Below, in pieces: positions 22,022-29,375 of a DNA stretch of 29,377 nucleotides (position 1 is the first letter of the stretch; every line of letters begins with the position of its first letter). Below the pieces are notes generated by a model. That model was not told the DNA's origin, made no database searches, and saw only the letters and a list, made by a program, of their open reading frames with translations. Position numbers and translations under genes: made by a program. The stretch comes from a virus, in the IMG/VR virus record IMGVR_UViG_3300022822_000064, positions 1-29,377 of that record. One strand, given 5' to 3'.

Positions 22022-23524
22022 ATGGCTTACCCAATTAGTGATGTAACACGCCGTGTGGTGTACTCCGGCTCTGCCGGGACTGGACCATACAGCTTTAGCT
22101 TTGAGGTCCTAACGCAGACCGACGTGGCCGTCTACAAAGACACCGCCTTGCTGACGTTGACTACCGACTACTCGGTCACGGTAAACGCAAACGGCACAGG
22201 CTCTGTGACGCTGGTTGTTGCTGCTACTGGTGTCAATCAAATTACGTTGGTTGGAGACCGGGCTATTGAGCGCTCTACCGACTTTGTGACTGGTGGTGAC
22301 TTGTTTGCCAACACGCTAAACGAAGAGTTGGACAGCGTGGTCATCTTTGCGCAGCAAATTGAAGAGGTTGCAAACCGCGGACTCAAAGCCCCGGTCACAG
22401 ACCCAACCGATGTCAACATGGAGTTGCCGGTCAAGGCCACGCGCAAAGGCAAAGTACTTGCGTTTGATGAGACAACAGGCGACCCCGTATCAGGCCCGGC
22501 ATTGGACTCAATGATTACGGTCATTGCCCAGTCTGCCAACATTAACACTGTTGCCGACAACATCTCCAGCGTCAACACTGTAGCTGGCAACACATCCAAC
22601 ATCAACACTGTTGCTGGCATCTCCGGCAACGTAACTACCGTTGCGGGTATATCTGCCAACGTAACTACTGTTGCGGGAGACGAGGCAGACATAGGCACAG
22701 TGGCTACCAACATTGCCAATGTCAACACCGTTGCGGGTGTCTCAGCCAACGTAACAACCGTTGCAGGCATCAGCGCCAACGTGACTAGTGTGGCGGGTAA
22801 CGCGACGAACATCAACACGGTGGCCGGCGTATCTGCCAACGTCACCACAGTTGCTGGCATATCAAGCGACGTGACTACGGTTGCGGCAATTGACTCTGAT
22901 GTGACCGCTGTTGCAGCAGACGCCACAGACATTGGCGCAGTAGCAACAAGCATAGCCAACGTCAATACGGTGGCAACAAACATTGCCAACGTAAATTCAG
23001 TTGCCGGCAACACAACGAACATTAACGCGGTGGCCGCTGACGCCACAGATATTGGCACGGTCTCAGCCAACATTGCTAATGTAAACACAGTTGCCGGCAT
23101 TAGCGCAAACGTCACCACAGTTGCTGGCATCGATACAGAGGTAACGGCTCTGGCTGGTGTGCAGACTGAAATAGAGGCGCTGTACGCAGAGATTGGCAAC
23201 ATAGCTACCAAGGTATCAAAGACATCAGACACAGGCTCTGCCGTCCTACCAGCAGGCTCTACGGCTCAACGTGACGGCTCACCATCTGCGGGTTATTTGC
23301 GGTGGAACAGCGACGACACAAGCGCAGAAGTTTACGATGGCTCTGCATGGGCGGCGGTTGGTGGTGGCAACAGCACTACCGAGGGCTTGTACGAGATGGC
23401 TAACACTATCAGCGTGGATTACACCATCGGCACAGGCAACAACGCCATGAGCGCTGGTCCTATTACAGTTAACAGTGGCGTGTCTGTTACCGTCCCTACC
23501 GGCTCACGCTGGGTCATCAGTTAA
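22022..23524 (+). CDS. Tail fibre protein with decapeptide-repeat shaft
   Basis: 500 residues from ATG 22022, with AGGAG at 22008-22012 inside the end of the previous gene. Residues 1-165 form the virion-attachment part of T7 gp17-like fibres: D-V-T-R-R-V-V-Y, G-P-Y-S-F-S-F-E-V-L, T-D-Y-S-V, then E-R-S-T-D-F ... L-F-A-N-T-L-N-E-E-L-D and I-E-E-V-A-N-R. Residues 170-389 are 22 tandem decapeptides, likely a trimeric shaft. The C-terminal 110 residues are Gly/Ser-rich and end S-V-T-V-P-T-G-S-R-W-V-I-S, a fibre ending common in marine and freshwater phages. It should link the tail to the separate tip proteins downstream. Confidence 0.9.
   Translation: MAYPISDVTRRVVYSGSAGTGPYSFSFEVLTQTDVAVYKDTALLTLTTDYSVTVNANGTGSVTLVVAATGVNQITLVGDRAIERSTDFVTGGDLFANTLNEELDSVVIFAQQIEEVANRGLKAPVTDPTDVNMELPVKATRKGKVLAFDETTGDPVSGPALDSMITVIAQSANINTVADNISSVNTVAGNTSNINTVAGISGNVTTVAGISANVTTVAGDEADIGTVATNIANVNTVAGVSANVTTVAGISANVTSVAGNATNINTVAGVSANVTTVAGISSDVTTVAAIDSDVTAVAADATDIGAVATSIANVNTVATNIANVNSVAGNTTNINAVAADATDIGTVSANIANVNTVAGISANVTTVAGIDTEVTALAGVQTEIEALYAEIGNIATKVSKTSDTGSAVLPAGSTAQRDGSPSAGYLRWNSDDTSAEVYDGSAWAAVGGGNSTTEGLYEMANTISVDYTIGTGNNAMSAGPITVNSGVSVTVPTGSRWVIS
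22529..23188 (+). repeat. 22 tandem 30-bp (decapeptide) repeats in the tail fibre gene
   Basis: The fibre protein is repetitive here with a period of ten residues. Typical units are I-S-A-N-V-T-T-V-A-G and N-I-A-N-V-N-T-V-A-G, with general form x-x-x-[N/D/E]-[I/V]-x-[T/A/S]-[V/L]-[A/S/Y]-[G/A/T/D]. Counting from Q170 gives 22 uninterrupted units (660 bases); the first and last are degenerate. The DNA copies differ at third positions, so the repeat is old or has been kept apart by drift. Such arrays can change copy number and so fibre length. Confidence 0.9.
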
Positions 23525-23531
23525 GGTTTAT

Positions 23532-23987
23532 ATGGCAATTATATTAAATGGAACAACTGGCATTACAACGCCTGACATTGATTCAACAGCGGGATTTGAT
23601 GGTGAAGACTTAACAGGTGATGTTGCTGCTGCACGTATTACTGGAGCATTAAACGCCACAGGCTCTGCGCCTATTTATGCTTGCAGGGCTTGGGTTAATT
23701 TCAACGGCACTGGAACGGTGGCTATTCTAGCCAGCGGGAATGTGTCGAGTATTACTGATGACGGTGTGGGTAAATATAGAATGAATTTTACTACGGCTAT
23801 GCCCGATGCAAATTATTCAGAAACTATTTCAATGACTGGAAACAGCGAATCTGCTAACACGTTTAGTACAAACGTTGGGACTAGCTCACCCTCACGTGTA
23901 CCTACAGCAGAATACGCAGTTATTTGCACAAAGTTTAATGGGGCTGCTTATGATGCCTCTCTCATTATGGCAGCCGTCTTTCGCTAA
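23532..23987 (+). CDS. Tail fibre tip / receptor-binding candidate 1
   Basis: 151 residues from ATG 23532, 7 bases after the fibre stop. The frame is open upstream to 23475 but that part lies inside the fibre gene. The N-terminus I-L-N-G-T-T-G-I-T-T-P-D-I is the usual start of small fibre-tip proteins. The core A-C-R-A-W-V-N-F-N-G-T-G-T-V-A-I followed by S-I-T-D-D-G-V-G-K-Y and A-M-P-D-A-N-Y is a widely shared phage/prophage fibre-tip domain. A receptor-binding role is likely. It is followed by two small genes that look like its accessory or chaperone genes. Confidence 0.75.
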   Translation: MAIILNGTTGITTPDIDSTAGFDGEDLTGDVAAARITGALNATGSAPIYACRAWVNFNGTGTVAILASGNVSSITDDGVGKYRMNFTTAMPDANYSETISMTGNSESANTFSTNVGTSSPSRVPTAEYAVICTKFNGAAYDASLIMAAVFR

Positions 23988-23997
23988 AAGAAACAAT

Positions 23998-24183
23998 ATG
24001 AAAAGAATTATTTATCAAACAAACGAAGGTGGCGTTGCCATCATTGTCCCCGCTGACTGTGGCTTAACCATCGAGCAGATTGCAGCCAAAGACGTACCCG
24101 CTGGTGTAGCCTACAGCATCGTGGACGTTGCAGACATTCCAACCGACAGAACTTTTAGAGGAGCGTGGTCATGGGAATCGTAA
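23998..24183 (+). CDS. Small conserved tail-region protein
   Basis: 61 residues from ATG 23998. The sequence K-R-I-I-Y-Q-T-N-E-G-G-V-A-I-I-V-P-A and D-V-P-A-G-V-A-Y-S-I-V-D, ending D-R-T-F-R-G-A-W, is a pattern I recognise from small proteins encoded after fibre tips in many phages; a tail-assembly or chaperone role is assumed but not shown. It overlaps the next gene by 13 bases. Confidence 0.6.
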   Translation: MKRIIYQTNEGGVAIIVPADCGLTIEQIAAKDVPAGVAYSIVDVADIPTDRTFRGAWSWES

Positions 24184-24404
24184 TTAACATCAGCAAAGCC
24201 AAAGACATTGCACATGATGTACGCCGTGCTGCTCGCTCAGTTGAGTTTGCTCCGCTGGACATTAAAGCCACTATTCCCTCAGAAGCTGTAGCAGCCGAAG
24301 AAGCTCGTGCTGTTGTTCGCACCAAGTATGACGACATGCAAACAGCCATTAACGCGGCAACTACAGCAGACGCAATTAAGGCAGCAATGCCACAGGGGGT
24401 TTAA
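24171..24404 (+). CDS. Putative tail fibre assembly chaperone-like protein
   Basis: 77 residues from ATG 24171. This start is chosen over GTG 24165 because GGAG at 24160-24163 sits 7 bases before the ATG. The product (I-V-I-N-I-S-K-A-K-D-I-A-H-D, then A-R-S-V-E-F-A-P-L-D) is helical, with a charged Ala-rich middle. It resembles small helical proteins encoded directly after fibre genes in other phages, some annotated as tail assembly chaperones. It ends in TAATG with the next start. The function is inferred from position and shape. Confidence 0.55.
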   Translation: MGIVINISKAKDIAHDVRRAARSVEFAPLDIKATIPSEAVAAEEARAVVRTKYDDMQTAINAATTADAIKAAMPQGV

Positions 24405-24451
24405 TGAGTAAAGTAGCGATAATCGGCAACGCCTCCTTGGGTTTTGTATGA
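24404..24451 (+). pseudogene. 5' remnant of a fibre-tip gene, cut off by the endonuclease insertion
   Basis: ATG 24404 (TAATG overlap with the previous gene) starts 11 codons, S-K-V-A-I-I-G-N-A-S, that look like the normal beginning of a small fibre gene. After 24436 the frame runs into unrelated sequence and stops at TGA 24449. The same nine bases, AACGCCTCC, end this remnant (24428-24436) and recur at 25235-25243, immediately before the fibre sequence G-T-G-I-F-T-V continues in the same frame. Joining 24436 to 25244 gives an uninterrupted gene. The remnant may still serve as a translation leader for the endonuclease, which starts in ATGA at 24448. Confidence 0.7.
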
Positions 24452-25243
24452 GCTTTGTTGTGTACTGGATACGCAAAGCATCCCATACGGACATTATGTC
24501 TCAGGGGTATGTCGGCGTGTCTGGTAATGTTCAGAAACGGTTTGCTGCGCATCGCAACATGGAGAATGGTACAAACGCTTACCTGCGCCACGCTATTCAA
24601 AAGCACGGCTGGGACAATATGGTTAAATCCGTGTTGCTGATGGCTGACAAAGAGTATTGCTTAGACATTGAGCGCAAACTGCGACCAGCAGACAAACTTG
24701 GCTGGAATCTAACAACAGGCGGTGGATACCCTCCAACTATGTCTGGGCCGCAACCGCATTTGCGCGGGAAGCCAGCTTGGAACAAAGGTAAGACTGGTGT
24801 GTTTTCCAAAGAAACATTGGAGCGCATGAGCAAAGTAAGGCTGGGCGTTTCTCCAGCCAATAAAGGCGTTCCCCTTTCCGCAGAAGCGCGCAAAAAGTTG
24901 TCAGAAGCGTTAAAAGGGCGTGTAAGCCCCAGAAAAGGCGTGAAGCTACCGCAAGAACTTGTTGACCGCGTCAGCGCTAAGAACCGTGGCCGTGTGCAGT
25001 CAGCGGAAGAACGAGCCATGCGCTCAAAAATGCTAAAGGGCATTCCAAAACCACTACGCTCTGAGCAACACAAGTTAAAATTGGGGGTATCTGCAAAGGG
25101 CAGACGCTGGTACAACAACGGTCAAAGCGTAACATTTTGTTTTGAAGGTGCGCAGCCTGACGGGTATGTTCTTGGTCGCAAGAGCAGAAAATTTTGCAAG
25201 GAGCAATAAATTGTCACTAATTTCATTATCCCCAAACGCCTCC
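24437..25243 (+). mobile_element. Homing-endonuclease insertion (about 807 bp)
   Basis: This segment comprises the GIY-YIG endonuclease gene plus short flanks, bounded by the nine-base direct repeat AACGCCTCC (24428-24436 and 25235-25243). Its removal restores an in-frame fibre-tip gene from the 11-codon remnant into the downstream protein. Exact edges are uncertain by the length of the repeat. The endonuclease gene fills almost the entire insert (24448-25209), leaving no space for an intron core. Confidence 0.65.
24448..25209 (+). CDS. GIY-YIG homing endonuclease with NUMOD3-type repeats
   Basis: 253 residues from ATG 24448. The catalytic domain covers residues 1-90: Y6-W-I (the 'GIY' strand), Y21-V-G ('YIG'), R31, E75 in L-D-I-E-R-K-L and N87 in G-W-N-L, the full set of active-site positions of the family. 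The middle (about 105-215) has repeated N-K-G-K/A-E-x-R-K-K-L/S-x-A-L-K-G-R elements, like NUMOD3 DNA-binding modules. The C-terminus W-Y-N-N-G is typical of such phage endonucleases. It should cut a fibre gene lacking the insertion and be copied into it by repair. It is freestanding rather than intron-encoded. The downstream gene's ribosome binding site lies within its last codons. Confidence 0.9.
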   Translation: MSFVVYWIRKASHTDIMSQGYVGVSGNVQKRFAAHRNMENGTNAYLRHAIQKHGWDNMVKSVLLMADKEYCLDIERKLRPADKLGWNLTTGGGYPPTMSGPQPHLRGKPAWNKGKTGVFSKETLERMSKVRLGVSPANKGVPLSAEARKKLSEALKGRVSPRKGVKLPQELVDRVSAKNRGRVQSAEERAMRSKMLKGIPKPLRSEQHKLKLGVSAKGRRWYNNGQSVTFCFEGAQPDGYVLGRKSRKFCKEQ

Positions 25244-25795
25244 GGCACAGGTATTTTTACAGTAGCCAGCCCAAACAGCAATGTTGACCGAGTGCTCACA
25301 TTGCCTGATGAGACGGGTACGGTAGATACGTTGCAACGAAGTGGTAATGTGTTGCAGGTGGTTAATTTCCAGACTGGTACTGTGGCTACTGGGACGACGG
25401 TAATTCCGCAGGACAACACCATACCTCAGATTACTGAGGGCGACCAGTATATGAGCTTGGCGATTACGCCTACGAGTGCATTAAATAAGTTACTCATACA
25501 AGTAGTAGCAATGCACGGAACACCTACAGACAATTCGTGGATTGTCAGTGCGCTTTTTGTGGGTTCGACTGCCAATGCTCTTGCATCCTGTGTTCAATAT
25601 GAATCGGGGATTGATGCGATAAGGGTTAACACGTTTTCACATTCTATGGTTGCTGGTGCGACAACTGAACTTACTTTCAGAGTTAGAAGTGGGCAGAATA
25701 CGGCGGGTACATTGACATTTAATGGATATGACTCAGCCGGTAAATATGGTGGTGTACTGGCCTCCTCAATAACAATCACGGAGTACACACCATGA
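25211..25795 (+). CDS. Tail fibre tip protein 2, re-started at TTG
   Basis: 194 residues from TTG 25211, preceded by AAGGAG at 25198-25203 with a 7-base gap. The frame is open further upstream to 25142, but that lies in the endonuclease gene. The first 11 residues come from within the insertion. From residue 12 the sequence (G-T-G-I-F-T-V-A-S-P-N-S-N, R-V-L-T-L-P-D-E-T-G-T-V) is the common N-terminal module of small fibre proteins. The C-terminal half (V-L-Q-V-V-N-F-Q-T-G-T-V-A-T-G-T-T-V, I-T-E-G-D-Q-Y-M, ending A-S-S-I-T-I-T-E-Y-T) is shared with the protein at 26070. Likely receptor-binding tip. It is coupled by ATGA to a chaperone-like gene. Confidence 0.78.
   Translation: MSLISLSPNASGTGIFTVASPNSNVDRVLTLPDETGTVDTLQRSGNVLQVVNFQTGTVATGTTVIPQDNTIPQITEGDQYMSLAITPTSALNKLLIQVVAMHGTPTDNSWIVSALFVGSTANALASCVQYESGIDAIRVNTFSHSMVAGATTELTFRVRSGQNTAGTLTFNGYDSAGKYGGVLASSITITEYTP
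25353..25398 (+). repeat. 46-bp near-identical direct repeat, copy 1 (fibre tip 2)
   Basis: This stretch, encoding L-Q-V-V-N-F-Q-T-G-T-V-A-T-G-T-T, is identical to 26233-26278 except for one base (A/G in the Thr/Ala codon). Similarity continues at lower level through the I-T-E-G-D-Q-Y-M coding part. It marks a recent duplication or recombination between the two tip genes. Confidence 0.9.
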
Positions 25796-26070: not shown

Positions 26071-26672
26071 TGGCTGCATCATTAACTAGTACAGACTTAA
26101 CCTTAGATAACACTTCAGGCGCTAGCATACCCGGTACTCCATCGGCAGGGCAAACTGTAATCTATCCTAAAGATGATAAGTTGCTTTATTATAAGAATGA
26201 TGCTGGGCAGGAGTTGCCTCCGGGTAAAGTAATGCAGGTGGTTAATTTCCAGACTGGTGCTGTGGCTACTGGGACGACTGTTATGCCTAACGACGATACC
26301 ATCCCTCAGATTACTGAGGGTGACCAGTATATGACTCTTGCGATTACTCCGACTAACGCGAGCAATATATTGCAGGTCAATGTCACCGTGTTCGCAGCAG
26401 CAAGTGCGGCGAATAATATCGGTGTGGCCTTGTTTGAAGGTGTTACAGCTAATGCGCTTGCTGCAATCTATGAGCCTCCCAATTCGACAGATGGGGGTGT
26501 CGGTTTATCTTTTATGCACAGAGTAGTGGCTGGGGTTACGTCTGCGCTTACGTTTAGGGTGAGAATAGGAAACGGGATAGCCTCAACAGTTACATTTAAC
26601 GGACGGGTTGGTGGGAGAATCTTCGGCGGCGTAATGGCATCCTCAATCACAATCACGGAGTACACAGCATGA
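26070..26672 (+). CDS. Tail fibre tip protein 3
   Basis: 200 residues from ATG 26070. The N-terminus (L-T-S-T-D-L-T-L-D-N-T-S-G, A-G-Q-T-V-I-Y-P-K-D-D-K) differs from the tip at 25211. From residue 54 on it is homologous: M-Q-V-V-N-F-Q-T-G-A-V-A-T-G-T-T-V, I-T-E-G-D-Q-Y-M-T-L-A-I-T-P-T, and the ending A-S-S-I-T-I-T-E-Y-T. The middle (A-S-A-A-N-N-I-G-V-A-L-F-E-G) is divergent, as expected for the receptor-contacting part. The two genes are duplicates with exchanged N-terminal modules. Coupled by ATGA to its own chaperone-like gene. Confidence 0.78.
   Translation: MAASLTSTDLTLDNTSGASIPGTPSAGQTVIYPKDDKLLYYKNDAGQELPPGKVMQVVNFQTGAVATGTTVMPNDDTIPQITEGDQYMTLAITPTNASNILQVNVTVFAAASAANNIGVALFEGVTANALAAIYEPPNSTDGGVGLSFMHRVVAGVTSALTFRVRIGNGIASTVTFNGRVGGRIFGGVMASSITITEYTA
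26233..26278 (+). repeat. 46-bp near-identical direct repeat, copy 2 (fibre tip 3)
   Basis: Second copy of the repeat at 25353-25398, with 45 of 46 bases equal and the same reading frame. The 880-base distance equals one fibre-tip plus chaperone unit. Confidence 0.9.
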
Positions 26673-28715: not shown

Positions 28716-29375
28716 TTAAGCCTCTTTGGGTTCGGTGGTTAAAGCAAGTGAGACGTGGGTTTGTAACTCAAAGTCCAGTTTGCTAATTTGCTTTTCGTTG
28801 GCCTTGCCAATATCGGAAAGCTTTAGAATTTTATCCTCTTGCGACAATTTGCCGGACTCTTTGACTTTAGTACACAACCCCACTAGCTCGTTAACCCATT
28901 GGCCAGAATCCTTAAGGACGGCGTAGGTTCTATTGTTTGGCAGCATCAATGGTAAGCCCTGCACTGCTGGCTGCACATTGTCCAAAGCATTGCGTGGTTT
29001 GGCTTTTGAAGCAGCGTTGCCGTCGTCGTCCTCCGCTGCTATGCCACACGCCGCCATGATGCTGTAACGCCTAGCGTATGTCAGCGCGCTGCCGTATCCC
29101 TGCGGGTCTTGCTTTGCAGCGGGTACATGCAGCTTGCCACCGCGCAGGACCTCGCCACTTTCATGCATAAACACAGTCTCTACGGTCACTCCATCGAGGT
29201 CTGCTGATGTCTCTTGATAGACAGCAATGCCATTGTTTAGCAATGCATCATTGACTGCTTCGAGGCAGCCAGCAAGGTCAGCATACTTGCTTCTAAAGTG
29301 TGGATTGGTGCTGCTTTTTAAAGCAGGAGCAAACTCTTTTTTAGCAGCTACAAAAGCCGCGGCTATCTTGTTCAT
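28716..29375 (-). CDS. erf: ERF-family single-strand annealing protein
   Basis: 219 residues, ATG at 29375-29373 on the complement, two bases from the window edge. The N-terminal two thirds is the ERF fold: K-K-E-F-A-P-A-L-K-S-S-T-N-P-H-F-R-S-K-Y-A, split here as F-R-S-K-Y-A-D-L after N-P-H, then L-N-N-G-I-A-V-Y-Q-E, and G-Y-G-S-A-L-T-Y-A-R-R-Y-S-I-M-A near 92-107. The C-terminal third is charged and probably binds partners. ERF proteins anneal single-stranded DNA in recombination and circularisation of the phage genome. It is transcribed against the structural genes, so it belongs to a separate early transcript starting beyond the right edge. Confidence 0.92.
   Translation of the reverse strand: MNKIAAAFVAAKKEFAPALKSSTNPHFRSKYADLAGCLEAVNDALLNNGIAVYQETSADLDGVTVETVFMHESGEVLRGGKLHVPAAKQDPQGYGSALTYARRYSIMAACGIAAEDDDGNAASKAKPRNALDNVQPAVQGLPLMLPNNRTYAVLKDSGQWVNELVGLCTKVKESGKLSQEDKILKLSDIGKANEKQISKLDFELQTHVSLALTTEPKEA

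Follow-up and report, generated by a model that had tools for sequence, protein, structure and literature searches.

The short tail-fibre gene of a podovirus-like phage contig houses, between its codons 11 and 12, an intronless homing endonuclease gene (HEG). Judging from the sequence comparisons described here, this HEG is very probably specialised for fibre-gene leaders and swaps the start of the gene that it enters, with the fibre gene being rebuilt. We will use the term "leader" for the first ~11 codons, a conserved stretch of phage tail-fibre genes that appears to be the target. The contig, here called the window, is the whole stretch of DNA analysed (a single virus record of 29,377 nucleotides, 29.4 kb), and its podovirus-like character is seen in the order of virion modules in its open reading frame (ORF) list. 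Comparison with relatives establishes the insertion, the empty (HEG-free) sites, the replacement leader, the joint movement of HEG and leader, and the recurrence of the arrangement. The relatives of the window are all metagenomic contigs, and the loci overall are mostly metagenomic.

All features of the locus lie on the + strand. The first is a small gene of 79 aa (24165–24404), which matches the PHROGs family phrog_20196 of unknown function and whose stop codon TAA overlaps the original fibre ATG at 24404 in the sequence TAATG. The native start and first 11 codons of the fibre gene follow as a 5' remnant, MSKVAIIGNAS (ATG to TCC, 24404–24436). In the window, this peptide continues as LGFV and then meets the stop TGA at 24449–24451, forming a leader minicistron of 15 codons (MSKVAIIGNASLGFV*, 24404–24451). 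The stop overlaps the HEG start ATG (24448–24450) as ATGA. The inserted element (24437–25243), delimited by the empty sites and by a near-identity block at 24428–25252, is 807 bp long and consists of 11 nt, the HEG of 253 aa (24448–25209) and the replacement leader; only 11 nt and 34 nt of it lie outside the HEG reading frame. A Shine-Dalgarno sequence for the fibre gene, AAGGAG (25198–25203), is embedded in the 3' end of the HEG. The replacement start and leader, MSLISLSPNAS (TTG to TCC, 25211–25243), is part of the element; its TTG is located one base past the HEG end. It opens the restored short tail-fibre gene of 194 aa (25211–25795), which begins with MSLISLSPNASGTGIFTVASPNSNVDRVLTLPDETGTV; dozens of viral contigs contain homologues with its leader motif. 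An earlier, sequence-only reading of the same DNA had given the coordinates, the 807-bp separation, a repeat at both junctions and an open frame on joining 24436 to 25244, and all of these hold. Its division of the fibre gene into a start and a continuation was correct as to the separation, but the continuation's own TTG at 25211 with its AAGGAG had been missed.

The HEG-free alleles of relatives support the proposal that a GIY-YIG HEG without an intron has entered a fibre gene. When relatives were searched for a continuous gene, the joined sequence was found as one gene in at least five contigs. In L035, L036, L042, L043 and L074, a single uninterrupted fibre gene reads ATGAG(T/C)..GG(C/T)AAC(G/A)CCTCC and continues directly across the junction with GGCACAGGT.. 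The joined-flank query spans the junction for ~550 nt in these five at 86–90% DNA identity with 3–4 gap positions in total, while BLAST segments from the window itself stop exactly at 24436 and restart exactly at 25235. In L035, L042, L043 and L074, the 79-aa gene likewise lies directly 5' of this uninterrupted gene. Relatives without the HEG do, then, show a continuous gene. The HEG-free leaders have the sequence MSKVAI(I/T)GN(A/T)S or MSQVAIIGNAS and match the upstream leader, which makes 24404 the native start and marks 25211 as foreign. The 24404 remnant, which could have been a conserved independent leader, is thus the start of the fibre gene, apparently reused for the HEG. The HEG-bearing arrangement is found in several separate metagenome assemblies (L001–L004), which rules out a chimaera created in a single one of them. 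Further empty sites have been identified: the L116 insertion is empty in L093 and L094, and the insertion shared by L161, L162 and L167 is empty in L164. The HEG of L164 occupies another fibre gene, which is empty in L162 and L161. On the sequences compared, this reciprocal pattern of empty and occupied sites is the prediction for a mobile element common to fibre genes.

The 9-bp sequence AACGCCTCC is present in two copies only (24428–24436 and 25235–25243), which end the two 11-codon leaders and are spaced 807 bp apart. The repeat alone proves little, since at least two copies also arise in 6 of 100 shuffled sequences. Sister insertions have no such repeat (for example, ACCTCG against GTGTCT in L119), and it is therefore best read, from the codons involved, as the homologous Asn-Ala-Ser codons of the two leaders rather than as a target-site duplication. 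At a single locus, gain of the element looks the same as its precise loss, since exact removal of the DNA from one 9-bp copy to the other would restore the empty allele.

The HEG and the replacement leader move as one block. Between the window and L001, L002 and L003, there is 1 mismatch in the 825 nt that hold the HEG, the replacement leader and the site (24428–25252), against 19 mismatches in the 249 nt directly upstream (p 8e-12); downstream, mismatches restart at 25253. The fibre bodies in this comparison are different proteins of 48–52% amino acid identity. A near-identical block between diverged flanks indicates that the HEG and its leader have travelled together, recently, between diverged phages. 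From 25244 onward, the window and these three contigs carry the same HEG and leader, and their fibre bodies diverge ~60–110 nt past the insertion, a pattern which suggests recombination hot-spots at the leader.

Similar insertions recur in other aquatic phages. Of 227 HEG relatives confirmed by profile scans, 80 were retrieved, and most of these adjoin the 5' side of a fibre-type gene. In ~20 of the relatives, the peptide of a native-leader remnant matches the start of the gene 3' of the HEG, and the insertion lies at or beside the Gly codon that ends the leader in nearly all of these cases. The HEG tree connects the insertions, not all of which are independent. Two arrangements of the remnant are seen. 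In-frame leader-HEG fusions number 8 (MEP301, L116/L007, L181, L193, L194, L136, L185 and L191). In the window, L117, L182, L152, L172, L161, L162, L167 and L184, the stop codon of a leader ORF overlaps the HEG start or lies directly next to it. Cultured but more distant relatives of the HEG, from phages of Klebsiella and Pseudomonas, lie in terminase or portal/protease regions, outside fibre genes, which limits the fibre preference to the nearer clade. One of these, in Pseudomonas phage vB_PsaM_M1 (L282:1992–2690), has the portal gene on one side and the protease gene on the other. This HEG and the protease gene have similar-looking ribosome-binding regions (CAACGGAGAAAACACATA and CAACACGGAGAACACGTAG); start swapping may, from this resemblance, extend beyond fibre genes.

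The distribution of translation signals suggests that the HEG depends on a captured start and donates a new one. The HEG start has a Shine-Dalgarno sequence of its own in 0 of 14 coupled cases (the window and 13 other loci), while one precedes 21 of the 22 replacement starts; among native leaders the figure is 18 of 22. For the window's native leader, no Shine-Dalgarno sequence was scored in the upstream sequence CAGGGGGTTTA. The codon differences between remnants and replacements comprise 72 synonymous and 44 non-synonymous changes, against a random expectation of 26% synonymous, and all 8 changed codons in the L116 leaders are synonymous. Nearly the same peptide encoded by different codons points to a conserved protein function in both leader copies. 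The window leaders (MSKVAIIGNAS in the remnant and MSLISLSPNAS in the replacement) are less alike in protein than those of the sisters, as if the donated leader had come from another fibre lineage; leaders of the type xPNASGTG occur in L037, L092 and L101. The Gly codon is GGC in 13 of 18 remnants and in 3 of 18 replacements (p 0.013, from a post hoc comparison of pairs that are not independent), and wobble C is lower overall in the replacement leaders (0.21 to 0.12). The shift of the Gly codon is only suggestive of immunity to the element's own nuclease or of an avoidance of deletion between repeats. GGC was considered as an obligatory target codon and rejected, as only ~1/3 of HEG-free leaders have it by a pattern that also catches non-leader ORFs.

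The HEG product is a predicted nuclease with an intact GIY-YIG fold and catalytic residues. In the Pfam search, the window protein alone scores under the curated cut-off for the GIY-YIG domain (residues 1–95, 17.4 against 22.6), while the NUMOD3 motif of its modular DNA-binding region (residues 142–167, E 2.5e-7) is above cut-off. Among 45 family members, 40 match GIY-YIG and 39 match NUMOD3. In the alignment of the 45 members, Y6, G20-Y21-x-G23, R31, E75 and N87 are invariant. The window protein also matches a homing endonuclease family in PHROGs (6.5e-20). A search of PDB sequences with the family profile gave no match at E 0.1, and a fold comparison was therefore needed. The best alignment of the AlphaFold model (pLDDT mostly 83–96 in the domain) is to the catalytic domain of I-TevI (Z 9.7, 89 residues, 2.6 Å). 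Bacterial and archaeal genomes searched with the HEG alignment yielded 51 pattern matches and no relative; at the sensitivity of this search, HEGs of the window type are found only in phages.

Based on these observations, we propose that the element inserts directly 5' of the Gly codon with which the leader closes. Left upstream, the host start and leader would now drive translation of the HEG; in some copies they would be fused to it in frame, in others they would form a short leader ORF to which the HEG start is coupled. In the window, the HEG would receive its ribosomes from the minicistron at 24404–24451. A ribosome-binding site and a start codon would come with the 3' end of the element, together with a replacement leader whose codons are often changed synonymously. 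The fibre gene would thereby be rebuilt, and normal fibre production is expected. Homing, as inferred from the family, would begin with a cut in the leader of the HEG-free allele, which would then be repaired on the template of the HEG-bearing copy. The occurrence of both empty and occupied alleles, and of a near-identical element between diverged flanks, gives indirect signs of such site-specific cutting and of super-Mendelian inheritance. It is speculated that the recoding shields the copy from its own nuclease. The window also encodes an Erf-like single-strand annealing protein (28716–29375, - strand, phrog_2324, E 1e-42). This protein could assist the repair and may help in homing that depends on recombination, as well as in the exchange of fibre modules.

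The rival explanations have to be weighed against the same locus. According to the sequence-only reading, the HEG disrupts the fibre gene, and in the simplest form of this account the upstream 11 codons would be dead and the downstream ORF a pseudogene. The 807 bp between the native start and the fibre body agree with such a loss, but it is very unlikely, and the claim of disruption has to be given up, since the insert supplies at 25211 a new ribosome-binding site, a start and the 11 missing codons. The ~20 sister insertions are alike in having functional-looking replacement leaders that conserve the protein. In addition, the fibre body has a dN/dS of ~0.3 against the HEG-free alleles and is, by this measure, still under purifying selection. 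We see little chance, too, that the window holds an ordinary intergenic freestanding HEG, in which case the leader would be a mini-ORF of chance or independent origin, and the fibre gene would have its original start downstream. Many family members do lie between two genes without a detectable remnant (cleanly so in L120, L005, L139 and L171), and the remnant is undetectable in ~2/3 of the wider HEG family. For the window, however, this reading is contradicted by the HEG-free alleles, which join the upstream and not the downstream leader to the fibre body, and leader-remnant match scores of at least 35 are found at 11 of 61 HEG loci against 4 of 474 non-HEG gene pairs (p 2e-8). It may hold for the remnant-free members, which may be simply intergenic or may carry remnants that have decayed.

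That the 807 bp are spliced out as a group I or II intron, or skipped by translational bypass, with the AACGCCTCC pair as junctions, is extremely unlikely. The identical 9-mers and the preserved frame are what such a process would need, but no Rfam match for an intron RNA was obtained up to E 1 within 24100–25500, and apart from the HEG frame the insert has only 11 nt and 34 nt. Sister insertions without identical junctions nevertheless keep the replacement start and ribosome-binding site. A tandem duplication of the fibre gene, with the leader as the remnant of a second copy whose body was replaced by the HEG, is suggested by the tandem paralogous cassettes at 25211 and 26070 of the window. 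It is highly improbable, as each empty allele is a single gene that runs from the remnant straight into the same body, and an additional cassette is absent.

The closest behaviour described so far is that of the fungal mitochondrial mORFs, found in atp6, atp9, cox2 and nad3 of Glomus sp. and in atp6 of Allomyces macrogynus (PMC3630166). These insert with a foreign C-terminus, and the old end can persist as a remnant whose differences are mostly synonymous (PMC3630166). As in the mORFs, the window has an intronless HEG in a coding gene that carries a substitute for the severed end, so that a hybrid gene survives and the native end persists. Here, on the other hand, it is the N-terminus that is swapped (the start codon, ribosome-binding site and 5' end) and not the C-terminus; the target is a phage tail-fibre gene in place of a fungal mitochondrial one, and the captured start would translate the HEG. 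The window element acts like an mORF without being classed as one and is its N-terminal counterpart in phages. The freestanding HEGs of T4-type phages (Seg and Mob) are also phage-borne with overlapping frames, and Seg has a GIY-YIG nuclease domain. Among these HEGs, segG contains the gene 32 promoters and mobE lies within nrdA of Aeh1 (PMC2988022). The promoters that SegG brings for its downstream gene can be likened to the downstream signals of the window element. The passages on them describe HEGs between genes or splitting a gene into two functional polypeptides and no replacement N-terminus (PMC2988022); unlike the split mobE/nrdA of Aeh1, the downstream ORF of the window regains a complete N-terminus. 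The catalytic-domain fold and the Y/R/E/N pattern are shared with the GIY-YIG enzyme I-TevI, which lies in a self-splicing group I intron of td, whereas no intron was detected at the window. A replacement N-terminus supplied by a HEG was not found in literature searches of an open-access library and may have been described earlier elsewhere.

A family member from a cultured phage is gp20 of Methylophilales phage MEP301 (44% identity). Its publication presents it as a putative endonuclease that presumably degrades the DNA of the host, and neither homing nor a swapped start was recognised in it (PMC8024684). In MEP301, the leader-HEG fusion begins MASIKLQGDTS-LYWIR.. and is followed by the fibre gene MASIKLQGDVS-GEL.. 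No exact empty allele was found for MEP301; MEP401 has the same upstream gene and a different adjoining fibre.

Beside introns and inteins, the start swap would be a third way for a phage homing gene to reside inside an unbroken coding gene. It ties host-range genes, which evolve fast, to a family of selfish nucleases and accounts for a recurrent oddity of annotation, namely a short leader ORF, an endonuclease and a fibre gene in succession. Only tentatively, we suggest that the HEG clade lives on the shared fibre leader, captures its start and donates a recoded, nuclease-resistant leader, and that the breaks drive swaps of host-recognition modules. As many unrelated fibre bodies begin with this leader, such breaks would swap modules between phages. 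Whether HEG cutting at fibre leaders leads to fibre-module exchange is a question that can now be tested, with MEP301 as a cultured example.

Other fibre genes of the window have features of their own. The paralogous genes at 25211 and 26070 share a 131-bp stretch (25342–25472 and 26222–26352) of 85% DNA identity and a C-terminal SSITITEYT motif in otherwise different bodies, and the shared stretch looks like a cassette exchange. The gene at 23532–23987 is of the fibre type, starts with MAIILNGTTGITTPDIDS and has a leader of the type occupied by sister HEGs in other phages, making it a potential empty target in the window phage. A T7-type tail fibre is encoded at 22022–23524 and contains a long array of degenerate repeats with units of the N-TVAGISANVTTVAG type.
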